This document shows, in pieces, positions 24,965 to 37,337 of a stretch of 37,932 bases of DNA (the stretch's first letter is position 1; every line of letters begins with the position of its first letter). Source of the DNA: Candidatus Staskawiczbacteria bacterium RIFCSPHIGHO2_02_FULL_43_16 (lineage in GTDB: Bacteria > Patescibacteriota > Minisyncoccia > Minisyncoccales > Staskawiczbacteraceae); contig MHOU01000012.1 in NCBI GenBank assembly GCA_001821935.1, positions 16,113-54,044 of the forward strand, in the 5' to 3' direction. A program made the position numbers and the translations under genes. Below the pieces are notes generated by a model. That model did no database searches. It saw nothing but the letters and a program-made list of their open reading frames with translations, and was not told the DNA's origin.

Positions 24965-25998
24965 CAAAAACCCCGCCGGTAACCGTAGTGGTTACCACAT
25001 ACAACAACGAAAAAACCATTGGCGAAACTTTAAAGTCGGTTCTGGCGCAAACCTACCCTAATTTTGAAGTGTTAGTCTCTGACAATGGCTCTGTTGATAA
25101 AACGCTAGAAATAGTGAGCTCCTTTAAAGACCCCCGGATTACAGTACGCCACAACATCAAAAAAATAAAATCAGACAAGTGGTATATCGGCGGCTACGAC
25201 AACTACAATGGCTGTTTGGAATCCGGATTAATACGCGGAGAATTGGTGGCCTTTTACCATTCAGACGATGTGTATGAAAAAGATATCGTCAAAAAAGAAG
25301 TGGAATTTTTAATGAGAAACCCTGAGGCCGGAGCCGTATTTGCTATGGGAAAAATTATCAACAAAGACGGCCGGGTTACCGGACAACACCGGGTATCTGG
25401 AAGATTGTCAGCAAAAAGCACCTACGGCCTCCAAGACATGGTTGAAGACCTGCTCATGGACGGAAATCTGTGCCTGCTCACTCCTACCTTTATGGCCAGA
25501 ACTAATATATTTGAAACCACGGGATTGTTCGTAGAAGAAAATTTTGAAACTTCAGCCGATGTTCAAATGTGGCTGCGCATCCTGCAGCACTACCGAATTG
25601 GCATTGTCAACGAAAACCTAATTTTACGCCGAGTGGGAGGCGTAAGCACAACCTACAATACTCTACGTACTAAACCGTCTGACCATTTTACGGTCATGGA
25701 CGATTTTCTGGCAAAAAAGCCAGCCGGACTATCTATTACAAAAAAAATGTTACGCCAGTACTGCTACCAAAAAACCTTTGACCGGATTTTATGCGCCTTT
25801 CATTTTTCAATCCAGGGGAACATTCCAAAAGCAAAAGACATTATCAACACCTCTTTTTCTCAATACTATTTTTTGGCGCTTTTTGAAAACATGAAACTGT
25901 TGCGCTTAAAAATGCTGGCCTTGCACGTAGCACTCTTTTTTGGCATTAACTTGGGGCTAGGCAAGCCCCTGGGAAAAATGCTCTATAAACTTAGGTAG
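24961..25998 (+). CDS. Glycosyltransferase family 2
   Basis: 345 aa: [45 protein letters not shown]...[16 protein letters not shown] overlap with the upstream gene. Confidence 0.92.
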
Positions 25999-26929
25999 TT
26001 TCTATATACCAGGCAATAGTTTTTTTGAGGCCTTCAGTAAAGTCAGTTTCCGCCACAAAACTAAACTCTTGTTTGGCGCGGGTAACATCCAAACTGCGGC
26101 GCGGCTGGCCGTCTGGCTTTACGCTGTCCCACCGGATCTCTCCTTTAAAATCCATCAACTTACAGATTAATTCTGCCAAATCTTTAATAGAAATTTCCAG
26201 GTTTGTCCCTAAATTTACCGGTTCTGATTTGTCATATTTTTCTGTGGCTAACAAAATGCCTTCAGCCACATCTTCAACGTATAAAAATCCTCGGGTGGCT
26301 TTGCCCGTGCCCCACACCTCAATATGGTCTTTTCCATCACGCTTAGCCTCGTAGACTTTTTTAATCAAGGCCGCCACCACATGGGAAGATTTCAGGTCAA
26401 AATTATCTCCTGGCCCGTATAAATTCAGGGGCAGCAAAAAAATAGAATTAAAGCCATACTGCTGGCGATAGGCCTGGCTTTGCGTAAGCAACATTTTTTT
26501 GGCCAAGCCGTACGCGGCATTGGTTTCTTCCGGATACCCGTTCCATAAATCTTCTTCACGAAACGGCACAGGAGTATGTTTGGGATAAGCGCATACCGTG
26601 CCAATGGCCACAAATTTTTTAACCCCCGCCTGGCGGGCTGCTTCCATTAACTGCACCCCCATCATGATATTGTCATAAAAAAGTTCACCGGGCTTTTCTT
26701 GATTGAATCCAATCCCCCCAACTTTAGCCGCCAAATGGATTACTATATCTTGCCCCGCAACGGCTTTAACGCAGTTTTCCCATTTGGTTAAATCCAAATC
26801 TTGAGCTGTAGGTAAAAAAAGATGCTCCTTTGGAACATTTCTTTTTTCAAGCAAATTGGCAACCAAGTGCTTGCCCAAAAATCCATCCGCGCCGGTAACT
26901 AATATTTTTTTGTCTTTAAGATTAATCAT
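25991..26929 (-). CDS. fcl: GDP-L-fucose synthase
   Basis: [22 protein letters not shown]...[35 protein letters not shown]...[40 protein letters not shown]...[24 protein letters not shown]; start trimmed to MINLKD. Confidence 0.94.
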
Positions 26930-27983
26930 TAACCCACCATTTATTTGAAAACCGTTCTTTAATAATAGTATCACCTTTGCCGGGCGCCTGCAAATTTAAT
27001 TGTTTTATCACTTGGCGCATATCACTGTCCACCATGATTTTGCATAAATCAGAAAATCCGACTCTTGGTTCCCAACCCAGTTTTTCTTTTGCCTTGGCGT
27101 TATCCCCAATCAGTGATTCAACCTCTGCCGGCCGGAAATACCGCGGATCAATTTCCACGTATTGGGTGTAGTCGCCCAAGCCGGCGTAGGCAAATGTTTC
27201 TTGCAAAAATTCCTTGACCGAATGGGATTGTCCCGTAGCAATAATATAATCATCGGGCTTTTCTTGTTGGAGCATTAACCACATGGCCTCCACGTATTCT
27301 GGGGCAAATCCCCAATCGCGCCTGGCATCTAAGTTCCCCAAATAGATTTTTTTATCCAACCCAGCTTTAATGCGGGCAATGCCCCGAGTGATTTTCCGGG
27401 TGACGAATGTTTCTCCCCGGCGCGGTGATTCATGGTTGAAAAGCACCCCATTGCAGGCGAACATCCCATAAGCCTCCCGATACAATCGAGTTATGTCATA
27501 AGAAAAAACCTTGGCCACTGCATAGGGGCTACGGGGGTGGAATGGCGAAGAATCACTTTGCGGAGGCGGTGTCGATCCGAACATTTCTGAACTTCCCGCA
27601 TTATAAAACTTTATGGGCAAGCCGGAGTTCCGAATTGCCTCCAAAAGCCGCAAAGTTCCCATAGCCACAGTATTGGCGGTGTATTCTGGCATATCAAAAC
27701 TGACCCGCACATGAGACTGCGCCCCCAAGTGATAAACTTCATCTGGCTTAATTTTATTGATCAATCTCTCAATATTACTGCCATCCGTTAAATCCCCGTA
27801 GTGCAAAAAAAGCTTTACCCCATTAACATGGGGATCTTGATACAAATGATCTATTCGAGAGGTATTAAACGTGCTGGCGCGGCGGATAACCCCATGCACC
27901 TCATAATCTTTAGACAACAAAAGCTCGGCCAAATATGAGCCGTCCTGCCCCGTTATTCCGGTAATAAACGCCTTCTTTACCAT
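26922..27983 (-). CDS. gmd: GDP-mannose 4,6-dehydratase
   Basis: 353 aa: [45 protein letters not shown]...[35 protein letters not shown]...SSEMFG...[18 protein letters not shown]. Confidence 0.96.
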
Positions 27984-28017
27984 AATGGGATTATACTACC
28001 TCAAGTCACCACTTTTT

Positions 28018-29049
28018 TCAAGGCACCGGGACCGGCCGGTGGCGGAAACGGTCAATAGGGTCGCCAATGAATTTTAGTAAAAGATATGAAAAGGCTACAG
28101 TTAATACGGCTGTTACCAACCCTAAATTTTGGGGGGCAATATGAAAAACGGGCATAACCGCCGCCTTGGCGATTGCCAAAACAAAAATGTGGCAAATATA
28201 CACGGGGTAAGAAAAGTCCCCGATACGCCGAACGACAGCGCTGTTTCTGGTAAGTTCAAAAACGAATGGCAGGGCGACAATCAACAAAACGTAATATGCC
28301 CATTGTTTAAAATATTCACCCGGAATGTATTGATAAAATAGCGTTGCCGCGATAACTGCCACAAAGGCAAGGTAAGATACTTTTTTAAAAAGCAGCCCAT
28401 AAAGATTGAAGATTTGGTAAAGCCGAAAGGTTAAGACCCCCGCGAGGAAAAATGCCAGTTCGGCAGGGAAGAATCGGTAAGTCCATGGATCATAATCAAA
28501 ACCGGCACGCCAAAGCGCCAAGCGCAAACCAAAACTCGCGACAATCAATAGAAGCAACACCCAGGTTTTTCGTTTTACAAAAAACGGGGCAAGAAGATAA
28601 AACACCATTTCCAAGGACAGCGCCCAACCCTGGGGGACCAGCAGAAAATTGGTGTGCCCGGTGAATACCAAAATGTCTTGTCCGAATAGTATAATATGAG
28701 CTAAGACCAAGTAAATGATAAGCCAAATACCCAAGGGCTCATGCGGGCCGAACCAGGGAAGGTTGAATTTTCCGGGCAAAAAAAACTGAACCGTAATCAA
28801 AATAACCAATGTGGCGGCCAGCACCGCCCAATATATCGGATAAATACGCAAAATTCGGTTCCTCAAAAAAAGTTGATATCCTTGCCATCCGCTCTGGTAT
28901 TTTTCTGAAAGAATCAGCGCCATGTAAAAACCGGAAATAATAAAAAAACTCTCCACGGCCACCCGGCCGCCAACAAGCGATAAGCCGAAAATCGGAGTTG
29001 AATGGTTTATGACTACCGACAGCGCTAATAAGAAGCGTAATATGCCCAT
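28018..29049 (-). CDS. Acyltransferase 3 (OafA/YrhL-like) membrane O-acyltransferase
   Basis: 343 aa: MGILRFLLALSVVINHSTPIFG...GGRVAVESFFIISGFYMALIL...RILRIYPIYWAVL...WALSLEMVFYLLAPFF. Confidence 0.9.
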   Translation of the reverse strand: MGILRFLLALSVVINHSTPIFGLSLVGGRVAVESFFIISGFYMALILSEKYQSGWQGYQLFLRNRILRIYPIYWAVLAATLVILITVQFFLPGKFNLPWFGPHEPLGIWLIIYLVLAHIILFGQDILVFTGHTNFLLVPQGWALSLEMVFYLLAPFFVKRKTWVLLLLIVASFGLRLALWRAGFDYDPWTYRFFPAELAFFLAGVLTFRLYQIFNLYGLLFKKVSYLAFVAVIAATLFYQYIPGEYFKQWAYYVLLIVALPFVFELTRNSAVVRRIGDFSYPVYICHIFVLAIAKAAVMPVFHIAPQNLGLVTAVLTVAFSYLLLKFIGDPIDRFRHRPVPVP

Positions 29050-29093
29050 AATGATTCACTTTAGCAATAGTGGATTTTTTGTTCAACCTAAAT

Positions 29094-29122
29094 TTGACAA
29101 ATAATTATAAAAATAGTATCAT
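29094..29122 (+). promoter_or_regulatory. Sigma70-type promoter upstream of the TIM-barrel gene
   Basis: TTGACA (29094-29099), exactly 17 bp, TATCAT (29117-29122). Confidence 0.75.
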
Positions 29123-29171
29123 TTTTATAGTGTAGGAATTTTTGCGAGCTCCATTCTAAAAGAGGTGTCCT

Positions 29172-30170
29172 TTGAAAAACCAAGTGTTTGTTCCGACCGT
29201 GGCCAAGTTTCCCAACGACATTTTGGGAAGCTGGCGCATCCAGGAACCGTTTGTGCAAGCGAGCTACCAACGCGGGCTGATGCTCGTGGAACTTGGCGGT
29301 ATCAAGGCCGTTACCGATGAAGCCGGTATCCAGATCAAAAACCTGGAAACGCTCAAAGACGAATACGGCGACACGCCAATTGTTACCATGCTCTCCAACA
29401 CTCCGTTTGAAGAAATGGACTGGCTTCATAACGCCGCGCTTGCTGCCAACCATGTCAGGTGTGGTATCCATTTTGCGGCCGTGATTCCTATCGGCGGTCG
29501 CAAGATTGTCACCTTCCACCTCAATTCGCTGGTAACGGAAGAAACATTCCTTTCCAAATCCGCCGAAGATTGGCGAGAATTGTTCGACTTTAGAATTGCT
29601 CCAATGCTTAAAGATGTCGCCCAATACGCGGCAAGTAACGGAGTAGAATTGAAAGTTGAAACGGTTCCCGTTCCTGAATACGGGGATTGGACTCAAGAAA
29701 ATGACTTGTCGTATCTTGGCAAGAAAGTGCGCCACCTGCGTAACCCCTTTTACCTGACCACTTACTGGGGTTTCCAACAACTGCGCCGGCTGGGCCTGGG
29801 CATCTGCCTGGACCTGTGCCACAACCGCACTATTTACCGAGCAGCAGGCCAGCTCGAAAGCCATGGCATCATCTTTGATGATGACAAATACATGTTGTCG
29901 TCTCCCAGCCATGACCTCATGACCGATGTCTTGGGACTCTTACCCACCGATCTGGTGCACTTAAACGACGGGCTGGGAGACTTTACCCAACAAGGCGATG
30001 TTTTCAAAGAAGGTGTTCCCCTTGGACAAGGAGATATTGAAGATCTTCGGGAAATCATCAACCACCTCAACCACAGGAAGATTCCTTTCGTCATTGAAGT
30101 GGATGAGGGCGGCGACTTCAAAAACCGCCCCGGAACCAAAGCTTCAATTGAGTATCTTTTGAAGCAATAA
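29172..30170 (+). CDS. Sugar phosphate isomerase/epimerase-like TIM-barrel protein (xylose isomerase-like/AP endonuclease 2 superfamily)
   Basis: 332 aa, TTG start with AGAGGTG SD: LKVETVPVPEYGDW...LGLGICLDLCHN...TDLVHLNDGLGDF...GVPLGQGDIEDLREII...PFVIEVDEGGDF. Confidence 0.7.
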   Translation: MKNQVFVPTVAKFPNDILGSWRIQEPFVQASYQRGLMLVELGGIKAVTDEAGIQIKNLETLKDEYGDTPIVTMLSNTPFEEMDWLHNAALAANHVRCGIHFAAVIPIGGRKIVTFHLNSLVTEETFLSKSAEDWRELFDFRIAPMLKDVAQYAASNGVELKVETVPVPEYGDWTQENDLSYLGKKVRHLRNPFYLTTYWGFQQLRRLGLGICLDLCHNRTIYRAAGQLESHGIIFDDDKYMLSSPSHDLMTDVLGLLPTDLVHLNDGLGDFTQQGDVFKEGVPLGQGDIEDLREIINHLNHRKIPFVIEVDEGGDFKNRPGTKASIEYLLKQ

Positions 30171-30179
30171 CAACAAACA

Positions 30180-30211
30180 CGGCGAAAGGATTACCCTTTC
30201 GCCGCTTTTTT
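30180..30211. terminator. Bidirectional intrinsic terminator overlapping the 3' end of the convergent GT4 gene
   Basis: CGGCGAAAGG-ATTA-CCCTTTCGCCG followed by CTTTTTTAT on plus; the GT4 stop codon (TTA at 30191-30193) sits in the loop region. Confidence 0.82.
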
Positions 30212-31405
30212 ATATGAATCTACAAAATTTACAATCTTTTTTTGCCATTGCAGACTCCCCATTTGCTTTGCGCTATTTTGAATATTTTCTTGGCGCAGCT
30301 TTTCATCGGTTACCATAGCATTAATTTTTTCAGCCATATCTTCGGGTTTGTGCGGATCGAAAATAAATCGCGCGTCACCCCCAATCTGTTCTGGCAACAC
30401 AGTGGCACTTGAACAAACTACGGGCGCCCCGAGAGCCATCGCTTCTATTAGCGGGATGCTTTCGGCTTCATATAGCGTGGGAATAATCACCGCGGCTGAT
30501 TTTTTCAGTAGAATTTTCAAATCCGTTTCGGGGATAAATCCTGTCCAAATGACAAACTTTTCCAATCCTAATTTTTTAATTTCCGTTTCAATCACCGGAT
30601 AAAAATCATTCTTTGAGCCGGTGCACACCAGAGTAATTTTCCGCCCATAAGTTTTGTGCAGCAATTCCAACGCCCGCACCAAATTAATATGGTTTTTGTG
30701 CTTCCAGGTTACCGATGGATAAATCAAGTACTCTCCAAAAATGCCATATTTTTTCTGGATAGCAGGAAACTCCGCCGTATCAATGGCTGATTCATTATCA
30801 TACCCCAAACCGCAAATGTCTATTTTTTCAGGCGTAATGCCGTAAAATTTCACGATATCTTCTTTAATATGCATAAACGAGGCCATAATGCGGGTGGCAA
30901 GTTCGGCCGATTTTTTCCCATAAATATCGCGTTTTTTTATATCTTCTTTCGTAAAAAATTCAGGGAAAATCTTGTGCTGTAAATCGTGTAGCGATATGAC
31001 GGTGGGAATGTTAAAATCATACCTGTCTAACGCTTGGTATGGGAAATGGATTACATCCACACTTTTTTCAATACATCTTTTGTAATCTCCCGCCGTATGC
31101 AAAAGCCATGGGTAAAACTTGGTTTTTAACAGCCAATCCCACACCGCAGAAAGCAATGAGCTTTGGCGGATGTATTTGTTGGTCACAAAAAACCGCAGAT
31201 ACTTGCACCGTCTTGATAAAACTACCAAAGAAACTTTTGAGCTCTCATACACTTCAAACAGCTTTTTATTATCCGCAGAACAAAATACTTTTACCTCAAC
31301 ATCACTATAGTTACCTAAAGCGTAAATCAGCTGCTGGGCATACTGCTGTACGCCGCCGGACTTGCCTTCCGGCATAAAATAGACAAAAATTCCCACGCGC
31401 ATCAT
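30191..31405 (-). CDS. Glycosyltransferase family 4
   Basis: 404 aa: FVYFMPEGKSGGVQQYAQQLIYAL...YPSVTWKHKNHINLVRALELL...PTLYEAESIPLIEAMALGAPVVCSSATVLPEQIGGDARFIFDP. Confidence 0.92.
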   Translation of the reverse strand: MMRVGIFVYFMPEGKSGGVQQYAQQLIYALGNYSDVEVKVFCSADNKKLFEVYESSKVSLVVLSRRCKYLRFFVTNKYIRQSSLLSAVWDWLLKTKFYPWLLHTAGDYKRCIEKSVDVIHFPYQALDRYDFNIPTVISLHDLQHKIFPEFFTKEDIKKRDIYGKKSAELATRIMASFMHIKEDIVKFYGITPEKIDICGLGYDNESAIDTAEFPAIQKKYGIFGEYLIYPSVTWKHKNHINLVRALELLHKTYGRKITLVCTGSKNDFYPVIETEIKKLGLEKFVIWTGFIPETDLKILLKKSAAVIIPTLYEAESIPLIEAMALGAPVVCSSATVLPEQIGGDARFIFDPHKPEDMAEKINAMVTDEKLRQENIQNSAKQMGSLQWQKKIVNFVDSYKKAAKG

Positions 31406-32499
31406 AGATTTTTTAGCGTATTACAAATATATCTGATTTCTTTTTCGGTTAATTTGGTACTTGATGGCAATGACAGTCCTTGGTAAGCTGTTTTTTTTGA
31501 AACTTCTAAATATTTGCCGGTAAACTTTTTATAGGGAGGCATATCGGAAATGGGGTAAAAAATCACCCGACTGTCAATGCCTGCTTCTTTTAATTTTTTC
31601 ATAACCGTGTCTCGGCTATAGCCCATCCCCTCTTTTATTAAAATAGAAAACATCCAATAACTATGCTTAGCATACGATTTTTCCACCGGCAAGATAATCC
31701 ATGGAACATCTTTCAATAACTTTTTATAAAGGGCGGCATTTTTTATTTTAATTTTTAAAAATGCTTCCAGACGCTCCAATTGAGCACAACCAAGCGCTGC
31801 CTGCAAATTAGTAATGCGATAGTTATAACCCACCACTTCATGCCAATACTTTTTCTCTTTTCTCATGCCATGGTCGCGCAACAGCAGCATTTTTTTGTTT
31901 ATTTTTTCATCATTGACCAGACACATCCCCCCTTCTCCGGTAGTAATGGTTTTGTTGCCATAAAAACTGAAACAGGAGATATCACCAAAGCCTCCCACTC
32001 TTTTATTTTTATATTTAGCGCCATGGGCTTCGGCCGCATCTTCAATCACTTTCAGTTGATGTTTTTCGGCTATTTTCATAATGGCGCCCATATCGGCCGG
32101 ATGACCGTAGGTGTGCACCACGATAACCGCTTTGGTTTTTTTGGTTATTTTTTCTTCCAGTTTTACCACGTCAATGTTAAGGGTGTCAGACTCAATATCA
32201 ACTAAAACCGGCGTGGCTCCTGTGTACAGCACAGAGTTTACCGTAGCCACAAAAGAAAAATTCGGCACGATCACTTCATCTCCCCTGCCAATATCCAGCG
32301 CCAACAACGCCAAGTGAAGCGCCACCGTGCCATTGGAAACGGAAACACCATGTCTGCGCCCGCAATATTTGGAAAAATCTTTTTCAAACTTTTCCACAAA
32401 GTAACCCAGTGAAGACACCCAGCCGCTGCGCACCGCTTTATTCACATAGAATATTTCTTTGCTACCGATATTGGGCTCAAAAATGGGAATAAACTTCAT
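31402..32499 (-). CDS. DegT/DnrJ/EryC1/StrS aminotransferase, GDP-perosamine synthase-like
   Basis: 365 aa: IPIFEPNIGSKEIFYVNKAVRSGWVSSLGYFVEKFEKDF...SNGTVALHLALLAL...IEDAAEAHGAKYKNKRVGGFGDISCFSFYGNKTITTGEGGM. Confidence 0.88.
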   Translation of the reverse strand: MKFIPIFEPNIGSKEIFYVNKAVRSGWVSSLGYFVEKFEKDFSKYCGRRHGVSVSNGTVALHLALLALDIGRGDEVIVPNFSFVATVNSVLYTGATPVLVDIESDTLNIDVVKLEEKITKKTKAVIVVHTYGHPADMGAIMKIAEKHQLKVIEDAAEAHGAKYKNKRVGGFGDISCFSFYGNKTITTGEGGMCLVNDEKINKKMLLLRDHGMRKEKKYWHEVVGYNYRITNLQAALGCAQLERLEAFLKIKIKNAALYKKLLKDVPWIILPVEKSYAKHSYWMFSILIKEGMGYSRDTVMKKLKEAGIDSRVIFYPISDMPPYKKFTGKYLEVSKKTAYQGLSLPSSTKLTEKEIRYICNTLKNL

Positions 32500-33887
32500 G
32501 ATTTTTTGAAGATGAAAAGTTGTTGGTTAATACGGTTTTTGTTGATGTTTCCTACGATGGCAAGATACGCACCACGTAATGCCATGGGAATCACTTTTTT
32601 ATACATGGGTATATTAGCAAAACCTTTAACGGAAACCACCCGTGAGACAACTGGCAAAAACCCGTACTTACCCATAAATTCCACCAGGTTTTTGGGCGAA
32701 AAAAAGAACGGGTCATGGCTGTTCATGGGCATGGAAACTACTAAGAAAGCGGTGGGATCTATTTTTTGCGATAACGTTTCCATGAAAACATGTTTGTCGT
32801 GGCTATCCAAGTAATACAGGGTTTCCATGAGTAACACCAATCCGTACTTTTTAATATCATGATTTTTAATAAAATAGGCGGCCGGGCTTGCGTAAAAATC
32901 AACATTACCCAAATCCAGATTTTTTGCCCTGGCAATAGCCGTTTGGGAAATATCAACCGCGTCAACCATATAGCCGCTGCTAGACAAATGTTTGGTAAAA
33001 TTGCCCTCGGCGCACCCTAATTCAAGGACGTGATTTTTGGCTAATGGAAGTTTTTCAATAGCTTGAAGGGTAATATGGTAACGAGTTTTTTCCGCTTCGT
33101 CTTTTTCTAAGTTCCACGGGTCTGACTTTTTAAAAAAATCATCAAAGGCGCCCTGGCTTCCGCCTAATAGGGCGTGGTCTTGAGTTGTTGACGCATACCC
33201 CACCGCCACCAAGTCTGTGGTAAAAGCAAATTCATTGGTAAATGCCAACAGGTAGCCGGCCAGCTTCCTGATAATTTTTTTAAAAATATTTTTATCCGGT
33301 TCTTTAAAGATGCCCGTTTTAGCAAAACCGGCCAATTGAAAAAGTTCTTTGACCAGATAATCGGTAAAGGCAATTTCGTGCGTTAAGTCTGAATTAAAAA
33401 TATATAAACCCGACAAGCTTCCCCCGTTGGGAACCTGCATAATAAACCGGCCATTCTTTTTCAATTTTTTACGGATGAGAGTCAGCACCCCCATGATTTC
33501 GCTCTTGGTAAAATGCTCCATGACATCAAAGGCCGTAATAATGTCAAAACTTTCGTCAACGGCAGATTCCAAAAAACTTTGAATCTCCCCGCAAACAACA
33601 TTCTTGACCCCCATTTGTTCTTGGGAAAATTGGACAAACTTCTCGGCCACTTCCACGCCAAAAACATTAGCATACCCCTCGTCTAGGCAGGATTTTAAAA
33701 AAATCCCCCAGCCCGAGCCCAAATCTAAAATGGCAATGTCTTTTTGGGCCGGAAAAAAACGTTTAATAAAAAAATCCCTGTAGCGCCGCGATTTGACGCG
33801 CACAGATTCTTCGCTGGGCTTGGGAAAGGTGGCCACGTCATGTTCAGACCATAGACGGTACATTTCTTTTTTATAATCTGGTATCAT
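32496..33887 (-). CDS. Tandem two-domain SAM-dependent methyltransferase
   Basis: Two class I MTase motifs in one ORF: IAILDLGSGWGIFLKSCLDEGYANVFGVEVAE...ITAFDVMEHF and HVLELGCAEGNFTKHLSSSGYMVDAVDISQTAIARAK...LLMETLYYLD. Start taken as MIPDYKKEM. Confidence 0.88.
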   Translation of the reverse strand: MIPDYKKEMYRLWSEHDVATFPKPSEESVRVKSRRYRDFFIKRFFPAQKDIAILDLGSGWGIFLKSCLDEGYANVFGVEVAEKFVQFSQEQMGVKNVVCGEIQSFLESAVDESFDIITAFDVMEHFTKSEIMGVLTLIRKKLKKNGRFIMQVPNGGSLSGLYIFNSDLTHEIAFTDYLVKELFQLAGFAKTGIFKEPDKNIFKKIIRKLAGYLLAFTNEFAFTTDLVAVGYASTTQDHALLGGSQGAFDDFFKKSDPWNLEKDEAEKTRYHITLQAIEKLPLAKNHVLELGCAEGNFTKHLSSSGYMVDAVDISQTAIARAKNLDLGNVDFYASPAAYFIKNHDIKKYGLVLLMETLYYLDSHDKHVFMETLSQKIDPTAFLVVSMPMNSHDPFFFSPKNLVEFMGKYGFLPVVSRVVSVKGFANIPMYKKVIPMALRGAYLAIVGNINKNRINQQLFIFKKS

Positions 33888-34632
33888 AGCCGGCTTTTTG
33901 CATTTCCTTGCCGCAAATGGCAATAAAAATAAAATGCTCTAATTTGGAAAAATAATTTTTGTAGTCTCCAATCACCCCCTTCCTAAAATCAATGCTCTGG
34001 CGATTTTCCTGGCCCTTTTCGCGGCCGCTCAAGCGCTTGAATGAAAATGTTTCCACCGCCTCGTTAACCAGGGCATCAGAAGCAGGCTCCCCCGCATAAT
34101 TCAAAATTCCCTTCACCACTTGCGCCGTATTAGTTGAAAGATTTTCGTATGTAATATGGTGCGACGCGATTCTTTCCCATCCCTGATAATGCTTGCTCCA
34201 CTCAAGGGCGGTAATAATGTAATTTACCGGTCGGATGCCGTAGAATAAGTATGCCAAGCGCCTTTTGAAGGTTTTATAGTTATCTTGCTTAGCTAAATAT
34301 AGCTGCCGAAAATACCGTGAAACGGCCGCGTCTCTGGGATCGCGGGTTAAAAAAACCACTTTATCGGTCAGATTGAATTTGTTGGCGGGAAAGCTATGGG
34401 TTTTCACCACCATGGAGTACTTTGTTTTTTGGCGCCCGGGCAAATTACCGCTGGTCAGCCGGATAATTTCTTTATCGCCCGAAAAATACAAACTGCCTTG
34501 CGCCAAATCGTAAGGCTCAATAAACTGGGCATTCAGAATATAACAAAGCATGCAGGTCAACCAGCCCTGTCCCGATCGACCGTAATCGGAAATTAAAATA
34601 ATGTTATCATGGGGATTAGAATTTGATTCCAT
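33871..34632 (-). CDS. PAPS-dependent sulfotransferase domain protein
   Basis: 253 aa: ISDYGRSGQGWLTCMLCYIL (5'-PSB-like), VVKTHSFP, VVFLTRDPRDAAVSRYFRQ (3'-PB-like), ITYENL, FRKGVIGDYKNYF. Confidence 0.87.
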   Translation of the reverse strand: MESNSNPHDNIILISDYGRSGQGWLTCMLCYILNAQFIEPYDLAQGSLYFSGDKEIIRLTSGNLPGRQKTKYSMVVKTHSFPANKFNLTDKVVFLTRDPRDAAVSRYFRQLYLAKQDNYKTFKRRLAYLFYGIRPVNYIITALEWSKHYQGWERIASHHITYENLSTNTAQVVKGILNYAGEPASDALVNEAVETFSFKRLSGREKGQENRQSIDFRKGVIGDYKNYFSKLEHFIFIAICGKEMQKAGYDTRL

Positions 34633-35143
34633 AACTTTCTTGTAATTTAGCGGTGATTTTTTTTATTGACTGTGCCACGGTTAATTCGTTGGTTTTTATT
34701 TCCAGATCCGGGTTCTTGGGAATTTCATACGGAGAGCTTTCATGAAAACCAATAAAATCTTTTATTTCTCCGGCCGCCGCCTTTTCATACAGCCCCTTCA
34801 CGTCACTTTTGACCAATACTTCCAGCGGACAATTGAGAAAGATTTCCAAGTAGTTTTTGCCAAACACTTGGCGAGCTTTATCACGCGTTTGCCGGTAGGG
34901 AGAGATGACTGCCACGATCAAAAAATCATAGTCTTTTTCAATTTTTTGACAATAATCAATGATACCAAGATTGTTTTCTATAATATGCTCCCGGGAAAAT
35001 TTGTCGTGCGTTTTATTTTTTTGGCGCACCACATCCCCATCTACCTGACAAACGGAAAACCCCGCCACCTCCAGCGCTTTTTTTAAGTAGTCCGATAATG
35101 TAGACTTCCCCGACCCCGATAGGCCGGTAAACCAAATAATCAT
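34616..35143 (-). CDS. cysC: Adenylylsulfate (APS) kinase
   Basis: MIIWFTGLSGSGKSTLSDYLKKALEVAGFSVCQVDGDVVRQ...VISPYRQTRDKAR...EIFLNCPLEVLVKSDVKGLYEKAAAGEIKDFIGFHESSPYEIPKNPDLEI; start trimmed from the track ORF. Confidence 0.93.
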   Translation of the reverse strand: MIIWFTGLSGSGKSTLSDYLKKALEVAGFSVCQVDGDVVRQKNKTHDKFSREHIIENNLGIIDYCQKIEKDYDFLIVAVISPYRQTRDKARQVFGKNYLEIFLNCPLEVLVKSDVKGLYEKAAAGEIKDFIGFHESSPYEIPKNPDLEIKTNELTVAQSIKKITAKLQESYGIKF

Positions 35144-35144
35144 A

Positions 35145-37337
35145 TTAATTTCCCTCTTCAAAGAGTTTTTCTTTGGGGTTTTTGTACATGGCAAAAAGCA
35201 TATCAGAAATTTCCTTGCGCATGACGTATTCGGGGATTTTTTTGTTTTCCAATAATGAAGTGCGGGCCAGGGTACCACTGATTTTCATTCTCTTGTTTTC
35301 CGCGTGGCCACAATCTACAGCTGTTGTGCCGCAGGCATTGCACCAGTAGGCCTCGCCAAACATGAGTGGTTGAATGCCAATATCCCCCACTTTCTGAAAA
35401 ATTTCCTGGCTGGCGTTGGGTGCGTAAAAGTTTCCCACGCCGGTGTGGTCGCGGCCGATAACAAAGTGACTGCAACCAAAATTTTTCCGACACAAGGCGG
35501 TAAATACCGCTTCTCGCGGTCCGGAATATCTTGAATAAGTGGCAAAAGGGCCGATGACTGCCGGGTACGGAGCGTAATAGCCACTTTGAATCATTAAATT
35601 ATAGGCAGCCAAAATGGGTTTAGCTTTAAAATCATTTTTCTTTTTAGGGCCGATAACCGGACTAATAAACAAGGCGTCTGCGCCCGCTCTTTTTAACGCC
35701 TCTTTTTGAATGTGTTCATGACCGCGATGAATAACGTTGCGGGTATGAAATCCCACAATCCTTTTCCAATTAAAATTACGGAAAATTTCCCGGGTTTGCC
35801 GGGGCGTCAAATTGGCGTGTCCCGCAAAAAATGGAGGCTTTTTCATCAACCAGATTTTCCCGCCAATAATATGGTCGCCTGAATCTAAAAAACGCTTCAC
35901 TCCGGGGTGATTTTGACCTACGGTACCAAACCATTTTTGGGCAGTAGCCTGTTGGTCAACTTTTTTGATTTCAGAAACTTCCATAAGAGCATACACATCA
36001 CTGCCTGCTTCCGCTTGCAATAAAATGTGCCCGCCTTGCTTAAAATTGATTTTTTCAGCGGGCAATTGCAATAAAATGGGCAGCGTCCAGACCACGCCAC
36101 TTGGCAGTCGGTATTCATCTAATACAGACATTAAATGCTGGTAATCCATAAACCCCTCCAGGGGTGAATAAACGCCCTCGGCAATTTGAACCACATCTAG
36201 CAGTAAATTATTGGAAACCCGTAATTTGGGAAGCTTAGAAAAATCTTTAACGTCTTTTTTATGGATAAATTGCTGGACCAATTTGCCGCCATGGGGCTCA
36301 ATAACACGGTGTTCGTACACCGAATCCAGGTAATTCGGATTTTCCTGGTAGCGCTCCACTTCGTCAATAATTCCCTGCACCATCTTGACGCTTTCAACGG
36401 GATGCTTACCAATGGCCGTTTCGGCCGCCAGCACCAAACCTTCCGCACCGGCCAGCAAGGTGTTGGTAATGTCGTTAATTTCCGCCCGGGTGGGTTGGAA
36501 ATTAACCATCATGGTTTCCAACAAATTCGTGGCCACGTAGACCGGTTTTTTAAGAGTTTTGGCTGTTTCTAAAATATGTTTTTGAGCCAAACCGATTTTT
36601 TGCAAAGGAATGTCGCGGGAAAGGTCACCCCGGTCAATGAGCAGGGCGTCGCTGGCCTTGGCAATTTCCACCAAATGCTCCACCCCACTTTTGCATTCTA
36701 TTTTACTGATGACAAACACCTTATAAGGAAACAGCTTTCGCAACTGCTGGACATCTTCTTTTTTTAAGGCAAATGAAAGCGCCACGTGGGTCACTTTTTG
36801 GCGAGCAGCCATCCTGAAAATCTGCAAATCTTTTTTGGTAAATGCCGGTAAATCAATGGCGCGATTAACGTTTACCCCCTTATTGGAACCAACCTGACCA
36901 CCCTCAAGAACTATCGCTTTAACGGTTTTACCGGTAATTTCTACAACTTTAATGATAACGCGATGAAAATCCAAATATATAATATCACCCTCTTGCAAAA
37001 CCCTTTCTGGCTGAATCGGATACAAGGGAATGTGCTTGGCATCACCCAAATAGTTTGCGCCAACCAGAAAAATAACCTCTTGCTTCTTAACCGTGGCGTG
37101 ACCTTTTTTAAAAGTTCCCGTGCGAATTTGCGCCCCCTCCGAATCTACACAAACGATCTTTTTGGTCCCCGCCCGGATTTTCTTTAAAACAGCCAAAAAA
37201 TCAGCCACCTTGGTGTGCGACAAATTAATCCTAAAAATATCCACGCCCGCTGAATCCATTCTCTCAAGGACTGACTTTTCAATAGAAGCAGGCCCCACCG
37301 TGGCCAAGATTTTTATTTTTGAATAATTTTTTTCCAT
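35145..37337 (-). CDS. Fusion protein: N-terminal pyruvate-kinase-like A/B domains plus C-terminal ATP sulfurylase (Sat)
   Basis: 730 aa. PK-like: KILATVGPAS...DIFRINLSH...VISKIECKSGVEHLVEIAKASDALLIDRGDLSRDIP...KPVYVATNLLETMMVNFQPTRAEINDITNTLLAGAEGLVLAAETAIGKHPVESV. Sat: EPHGGKLVQ...SPLEGFMDYQHL...FHTRNVIHRGHEHIQKEAL...VIGRDHTGVGNFYAPNASQEIF...CNACGTTAVDCGH...ISGTLART. Confidence 0.93.
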   Translation of the reverse strand: MEKNYSKIKILATVGPASIEKSVLERMDSAGVDIFRINLSHTKVADFLAVLKKIRAGTKKIVCVDSEGAQIRTGTFKKGHATVKKQEVIFLVGANYLGDAKHIPLYPIQPERVLQEGDIIYLDFHRVIIKVVEITGKTVKAIVLEGGQVGSNKGVNVNRAIDLPAFTKKDLQIFRMAARQKVTHVALSFALKKEDVQQLRKLFPYKVFVISKIECKSGVEHLVEIAKASDALLIDRGDLSRDIPLQKIGLAQKHILETAKTLKKPVYVATNLLETMMVNFQPTRAEINDITNTLLAGAEGLVLAAETAIGKHPVESVKMVQGIIDEVERYQENPNYLDSVYEHRVIEPHGGKLVQQFIHKKDVKDFSKLPKLRVSNNLLLDVVQIAEGVYSPLEGFMDYQHLMSVLDEYRLPSGVVWTLPILLQLPAEKINFKQGGHILLQAEAGSDVYALMEVSEIKKVDQQATAQKWFGTVGQNHPGVKRFLDSGDHIIGGKIWLMKKPPFFAGHANLTPRQTREIFRNFNWKRIVGFHTRNVIHRGHEHIQKEALKRAGADALFISPVIGPKKKNDFKAKPILAAYNLMIQSGYYAPYPAVIGPFATYSRYSGPREAVFTALCRKNFGCSHFVIGRDHTGVGNFYAPNASQEIFQKVGDIGIQPLMFGEAYWCNACGTTAVDCGHAENKRMKISGTLARTSLLENKKIPEYVMRKEISDMLFAMYKNPKEKLFEEGN

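Follow-up and report, generated by a model that had tools for sequence, protein, structure and literature searches.

A gene on the minus strand at positions 35,145 to 37,337 of the window (the whole 37,932-nucleotide stretch of Candidatus Staskawiczbacteria DNA analysed here) encodes a 730-amino-acid protein in which a short pyruvate kinase (PK) is fused to a complete ATP sulfurylase (Sat). From its sequence and surroundings, the fusion rather likely acts as the opening enzyme of a sulfation module that produces PAPS, and its own PK part would regenerate the ATP. Cells of many phyla probably use PEP in this way to keep PAPS synthesis supplied with ATP. The proposal builds on direct observations, namely the architecture, its distribution, the conservation of catalytic residues, the gene context, and the absence of a PAPS reductase.

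The fusion gene and its neighbourhood

The open reading frame starts with ATG, and three Pfam domains exceed their cut-offs: the PK barrel (PF00224, residues 7–317, 221 bits, cut-off 30), PUA_2, which is the N-terminal domain of ATP sulfurylase (PF14306, residues 346–499, 132 bits; positions 35,841–36,302, minus strand), and the ATP sulfurylase catalytic domain (PF01747, residues 509–715, 228 bits; 35,193–35,813, minus strand). The latter carries the HTRNxxHxxHE and GRDH motifs and matches the structure 8a8g. The PK part comprises the A barrel and the B lid (residues 7–332; 36,342–37,319, minus strand), as identified by Pfam and by Foldseek matches to PykF and PKM structures; the C-terminal domain PK_C was not detected by Pfam in the window protein. 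These results bear out the sequence-only reading, which had described a PK-like region lacking the PK C-terminal domain, followed by a complete ATP sulfurylase in a single frame. All PK motifs quoted there are present, including DSEGAQIRTG (residues 65–74; 37,116–37,145, minus strand), which stands where canonical enzymes have D(T/L)(K/Q)GP(E/K)IR(T/x)G. The alteration from DTKGPEIRTG is real and wider than had been noted, since it is a signature of the entire family described below.

Structural modelling, proposed earlier as a check, yielded a PK and an ATP sulfurylase half (AlphaFold2, 38-sequence alignment, mean pLDDT 92.1, pTM 0.83). In Foldseek searches, the Sat half matched 8a8g with a target TM of 0.93 (range 0.92–0.93 for 8a8g and 1v47), and the PK half matched pyruvate kinases such as PykF and PKM2. 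The protein resembles Sat of the archaeal/bacterial type (8a8g, 1v47) in its full PUA_2 and catalytic domains and in the HxxH and GRDH motifs, whereas it differs by its N-terminal PK domain and by scores slightly under the NCBIfam cut-offs (295.3 against 322.95 bits for the equivalog_domain model TIGR00339; 381 against 387 in a second Sat comparison). The cut-off of the PK equivalog TIGR01064 was not reached (275 against 306.4 bits), in part because the C domain is missing.

The ATG of cysC (34,616–35,143, minus strand), which encodes an APS kinase of 175 amino acids (PF01583, 140 bits; TIGR00455, 155 bits, over cut-off), begins 1 nt past the stop codon of the fusion; Sat and APS kinase are thus encoded on separate polypeptides in the window. 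A gene for a PAPS-dependent sulfotransferase (Sulfotransfer_1, PF00685, 74 bits; 33,871–34,632, minus strand), the only PF00685 match in the genome, overlaps the end of cysC by 17 nt. The region 25,991–33,923 (no strand assigned) represents a surface-polysaccharide context with genes for a methyltransferase, a DegT aminotransferase, a glycosyltransferase, an acyltransferase, a GDP-mannose 4,6-dehydratase, and an epimerase, and polysaccharide-export genes also surround the set of fusion, cysC, and sulfotransferase genes. The genome (740 kb, 95% complete) encodes a soluble pyrophosphatase (PPase) and enolase. PAPS_reduct had no match in it, while all of 14 control genomes were positive, which leaves assimilatory sulfate reduction unsupported as the purpose of the module. 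The absence of a PAPS reductase, the single Sulfotransfer_1, and the surface-polysaccharide surroundings indicate that the module most likely serves sulfation and not sulfur assimilation. A surface polysaccharide is most likely the sulfotransferase substrate.

A predicted open reading frame just beyond the right-hand end of the window (L038, 4,532–5,179) holds a run of X. Immediately upstream of the fusion gene there is thus a stretch of N, either masked bases or a gap in the scaffold, which makes the promoter of the fusion gene and its neighbour on that side unreliable to read.

Distribution and genomic linkage of the PK clade

The fusion was detected in four further genomes among 148 relatives (56–63% identity), and a frame of approximately 730–760 amino acids is uninterrupted in 5 of the 247 genomes of the order as well as in dozens of genomes beyond. 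Going by the named matches, close relatives fall in Candidatus Staskawiczbacteria and Nealsonbacteria. When the 247 genomes were scored with the family model, the five fused PKs reached 453–473 bits and all other PKs at most 277; in most relatives across the order, the PK is of another kind or missing. PK-Sat fusions of 726–736 amino acids, one of them adjoining cysC, are also encoded on closed plasmids of Ensifer adhaerens and Sinorhizobium chiapasense. The earlier concerns that the assembly might be mis-joined or frameshifted, or the architecture absent from all relatives, did not materialize: relatives carry the fusion. The likelihood that an assembly or frameshift artefact joined two genes is vanishingly small, and this explanation was ruled out by the closed plasmids and the many independent assemblies in which the same fusion occurs. 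A scan of viral_contigs with the window protein gave no relative; the matches in phage records were all below 60% identity and mostly unannotated fragments.

A scan of the genome collection with the PK domain resulted in 80 loci from 250 relatives, ranked by similarity to the fused PK, and 67 of these share the motif D[ST][EQ]G[AS]Q[ILVM]R. The 67 loci originate from Patescibacteria, Nitrospirae/Nitrospina, Planctomycetes/anammox bacteria, Verrucomicrobia, Gemmatimonadetes, Elusimicrobia, Omnitrophota, Chloroflexi, NC10, Ignavibacteria, Alphaproteobacteria including SAR11, and Desulfovibrio, and among the archaea from Thermoplasmata and DPANN. In the tree, the family PKs formed one clade set apart from the canonical PKs with 100/100 support and marked by D[ST]EG[AS]Q and DRGDLS; no NCBIfam model is specific for it. 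The Pfam domains of 69 members amounted to 69 PK, 41 PUA_2, 38 ATP-sulfurylase, 8 APS_kinase, and no PK_C. The Sat domains of the fusions are separated from Sat-CysC proteins and fall into two large clades that correspond to those of the PK domains.

Other shortened PKs were encountered. PK-like open reading frames of about 230 amino acids in G113, G560, G561, G590, G591, and G595 match positions 2–61 and 175–325 of the model only; the middle is skipped, so the B (lid) domain is apparently missing. Relatives of the window organism (L009, L017, L018, L019, and L021) encode standalone PKs of about 340–370 amino acids that carry canonical ARGDLG motifs and seem too short to hold PK_C.

The 67 family loci comprise 33 PK-Sat fusions, 7 PK-Sat-CysC fusions (916–940 amino acids), one PK-CysC fusion without Sat (L101), and 26 PKs alone, 13 of which have cysC within 2 kb. 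In Desulfovibrio (L062), cysC, PK, and sat are successive unfused genes. Altogether, the PK is fused to Sat or CysC or has cysC within 2 kb in 54 of the 67 family loci versus none of 11 canonical PK loci of the same scan (Fisher p ~3e-7), a comparison that is indicative and not an unbiased rate, because the sample was ranked by similarity to the fused PK and the controls, mostly Weeksellaceae, are few and related. Since both the PK-CysC fusion and the adjacency to cysC occur without Sat, the shared partner appears to be the ADP-producing step. The HxxH and GRDH motifs of Sat are intact in nearly all fusions. In 17 of the 33 PK-Sat loci, cysC was not found in the stretch fetched (some lie on short contigs), which weakens the ATP-regeneration reading.

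PF00224 matched a single protein in the window genome, the fusion, which may therefore also serve glycolysis; this, too, weakens ATP regeneration as the function. It could even be the organism's glycolytic PK that happens to be joined to Sat in a reduced genome, and PF00224 is single-copy in many small family-bearing genomes as well: in SAR11 and most small genomes among the 38 inspected, the family member is the only PK. However, at least 11 of the 38 also hold a separate canonical PK (open frame of approximately 473–527 amino acids), so the family PK is a dedicated paralog there and dispensable for glycolysis. A chance fusion is also difficult to reconcile with the repeated joining to Sat or CysC that is missing from the canonical loci, and with the different or absent PK in most relatives of the order, and is considered quite improbable.

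A separate pairing of PK and Sat, with a canonical-type PK, is found in L036 (7,636–10,121), where a standalone sat is preceded, at a distance of 5 nt, by an ordinary PK_C-bearing PK of 469 amino acids that falls outside the new clade; this pairing speaks for the ATP-regeneration reading. In G482, the PK-Sat-CysC gene is followed by a gene of the inositol-monophosphatase family (L039, 8,786–9,607); its product may be a PAP phosphatase, with which the sulfation cycle would be complete.

Active site of the PK domain

For the residue comparison, 69 family members were aligned against PykF, and rabbit-muscle numbers were transferred from the PykF alignment. R36, N38, S40, H41, D65, R72, S188, K212, E214, R236, G237, and D238 are invariant in all 69 members and match PykF; K169 and T270 do so in 68. 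The PEP/Mg catalytic set (R32, N34, S36, D66, K220, E222, D246, and T278 of PykF) is thereby invariant or conserved in 68 of 69 members. The family differs from PykF by D235 (A in PykF), S240 (G), and N271 (Q); E67 is present in 68 and Q70 in all 69 members. In rabbit-muscle numbering, the consistent changes are K114E, E117Q, D177F in the lid, A292D, and Q328N. Nucleotide contacts of the rabbit enzyme are R119 (beta-phosphate), K206 (ribose), H77 (adenine pocket), and D177 of the lid (PMC8835810). The equivalents of the first three belong to the conserved residues listed above and are retained in the family; that of D177 is F in 65 of 69 members. Dependence on K+ is indicated by T113/K114/E117/T120 and independence by L113/Q114/K117/(L,I,V)120 (PMC8835810, PMC4374775); the family, with S or T113, E114, Q117, and T120, fits neither signature.

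As the catalytic and most nucleotide-contacting residues are kept, PEP phosphotransfer looks intact, with ADP as the likeliest acceptor, whereas ion use or lid closure probably differs from canonical PK. Of the PEP- and ADP-binding residues, whose loss would have spoken against the sequence-only reading, the PEP set and three ADP contacts are kept, and the lid aspartate is replaced in most members. A pseudogene or decayed PK was rejected on account of the residue conservation.

With its consistent changes, the active site may take another acceptor or use ions differently, which weakens the ATP-regeneration reading. The domain might act as a PEP-dependent phosphotransferase on an acceptor other than ADP, for instance another sulfation or nucleotide-activation intermediate, given that the changes shared by the family gather around the hinge, the lid, and the K+ site (E67, Q70, F124, D235, N271) and that the solo PK of SAR11 occurs without Sat beside cysC, at some loci with a tiny nucleotidyltransferase. 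The retention of the R119, K206, and H77 equivalents argues against this, as does the behaviour of rabbit PK, in which K114Q stays active and E117A is active, albeit K+-dependent (PMC8835810, PMC4374775), so that we regard a different acceptor as unlikely.

Dead enzyme domains normally lose some of their catalytic residues. Across the 69 members of the PK family, including solo forms that are not attached to Sat, the catalytic Lys, Arg, Glu, Asp, and Thr show no or almost no variation, which weakens the alternative raised in the sequence-only reading, an APS/PEP-sensing regulatory domain. In a broader form of this alternative, a weak or dead PK domain would sense PEP or a nucleotide, or act as a scaffold, and thereby regulate Sat, similar to the inactive APS-kinase-like domain of fungal Sat. 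Pseudo-enzyme regulatory domains on Sat and APS kinase have precedent (PMC13213808), and the active-site loop and the lid are altered; in view of the conserved catalytic residues, a regulatory role nevertheless appears improbable.

Proposed function and relation to known systems

Sulfate activation is strongly uphill, and APS kinase is trapped by ADP together with APS, which is why biotechnologists add pyruvate kinase. In the proposed module, the Sat part would convert ATP and sulfate to APS and PPi, the adjacent CysC would form PAPS and ADP from APS and ATP, and the fused short PK would transfer the phosphate of PEP to ADP, yielding pyruvate and ATP beside the ATP-consuming enzymes. Regeneration of ATP would cut the cost of the APS kinase step, and the removal of ADP would free this enzyme from its dead-end complex with APS. 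Together with the separate pyrophosphatase, the PK would pull the unfavourable Sat reaction, and the PAPS would be used by the neighbouring sulfotransferase, whose most likely substrate is a surface polysaccharide. In this scheme, we infer that the enzyme is active, that it phosphorylates ADP and channels ATP, and which product becomes sulfated. Regeneration of ATP from PEP and the ADP of APS kinase, as suggested by the sequence-only reading, stands as the best-supported explanation, favoured by the several ways in which the same PK is joined to Sat and CysC and by the catalytic residues kept; it is qualified by the changed lid and K+-site residues.

In vitro, a PAPS synthase clearly yielded PAPS when PK was present and practically none when it was left out, an effect ascribed to the dead-end complex of APS kinase, APS, and ADP (PMC9885120). 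The proposed regeneration of ATP from the ADP of APS kinase is the same, but that system is an engineered mix of separate enzymes, whereas here the fusion or operon is genetically encoded. Bifunctional PAPS synthases (Sat-CysC) and trifunctional PPase-containing forms (PMC2275785, PMC13213808) are alike in that a partner of Sat helps to pull sulfate activation; they differ in the partner, which in the fusion is a PK forming ATP from ADP instead of CysC or PPase. In comparison with PK (EC 2.7.1.40; E. coli PykF, rabbit/human PKM), the A-barrel and B-lid fold, the PEP/Mg residues, and most ADP contacts are shared, whereas the absence of PK_C, the E114/Q117 loop, the exchange of the lid Asp for Phe, DRGDLS, N271, and the position in a separate clade (100/100) set the fusion PK apart. 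The fusion partners of Sat named in the literature consulted comprise APS kinase, APS reductase, and pyrophosphatase (PMC2275785, PMC13213808), plus a histidine phosphatase in a single archaeal case (PMC11237513). In the open-licence literature searched, fusion surveys included, neither a PK-Sat fusion nor the trifunctional PK-Sat-CysC form was described, in agreement with the earlier statement that no characterised PK partner of Sat is known. Both enzyme families are known; no description of their combination, of the PK clade, or of its spread seems to exist within that literature.

If the proposal is true, cells use the same PK trick as biotechnologists, and a branch of a textbook family that had not been told apart gains a function. 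Sulfated surface glycans would then be indicated in Patescibacteria, DPANN archaea, and SAR11, and PAPS could be produced with a single protein that nature already supplies. Through the copies in Ensifer and Sinorhizobium, the proposal can be tested in cultured bacteria.

The ATP-regeneration reading is further weakened by SAR11, whose solo PK, often accompanied by cysC, is found in genomes in which Sat was not detected (PF01747 in none of 13 genomes) and CysD is mostly missing (absent from 12 of 13). A nucleotidyltransferase of about 118 amino acids (CTP_transf_like, GRFQPFHNGH) is located near cysC and/or the solo PK at SAR11-type loci (L097, 9,629–9,985; L111, 886–1,245; also L071, L103, L112, and L084), and its weak match to the ATP-sulfurylase Pfam model makes it a candidate for a minimal ATP sulfurylase. 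Tentatively, and as a rather doubtful extension, the entire PK lineage might be a dedicated PEP-powered supplier of ATP for activated sulfate, with ATP channelled between the active sites of the fusions; in SAR11, the solo PK would cooperate with CysC and with the small nucleotidyltransferase, the latter taking the place of ATP sulfurylase. A 256-amino-acid protein of L063 (8,344–9,114) combines an APS-kinase/AAA_33-like N-terminus with a CTP_transf_like C-terminus that matches the SAR11 nucleotidyltransferase, and its gene adjoins a Sulfotransfer_1 gene and a solo PK of the clade.
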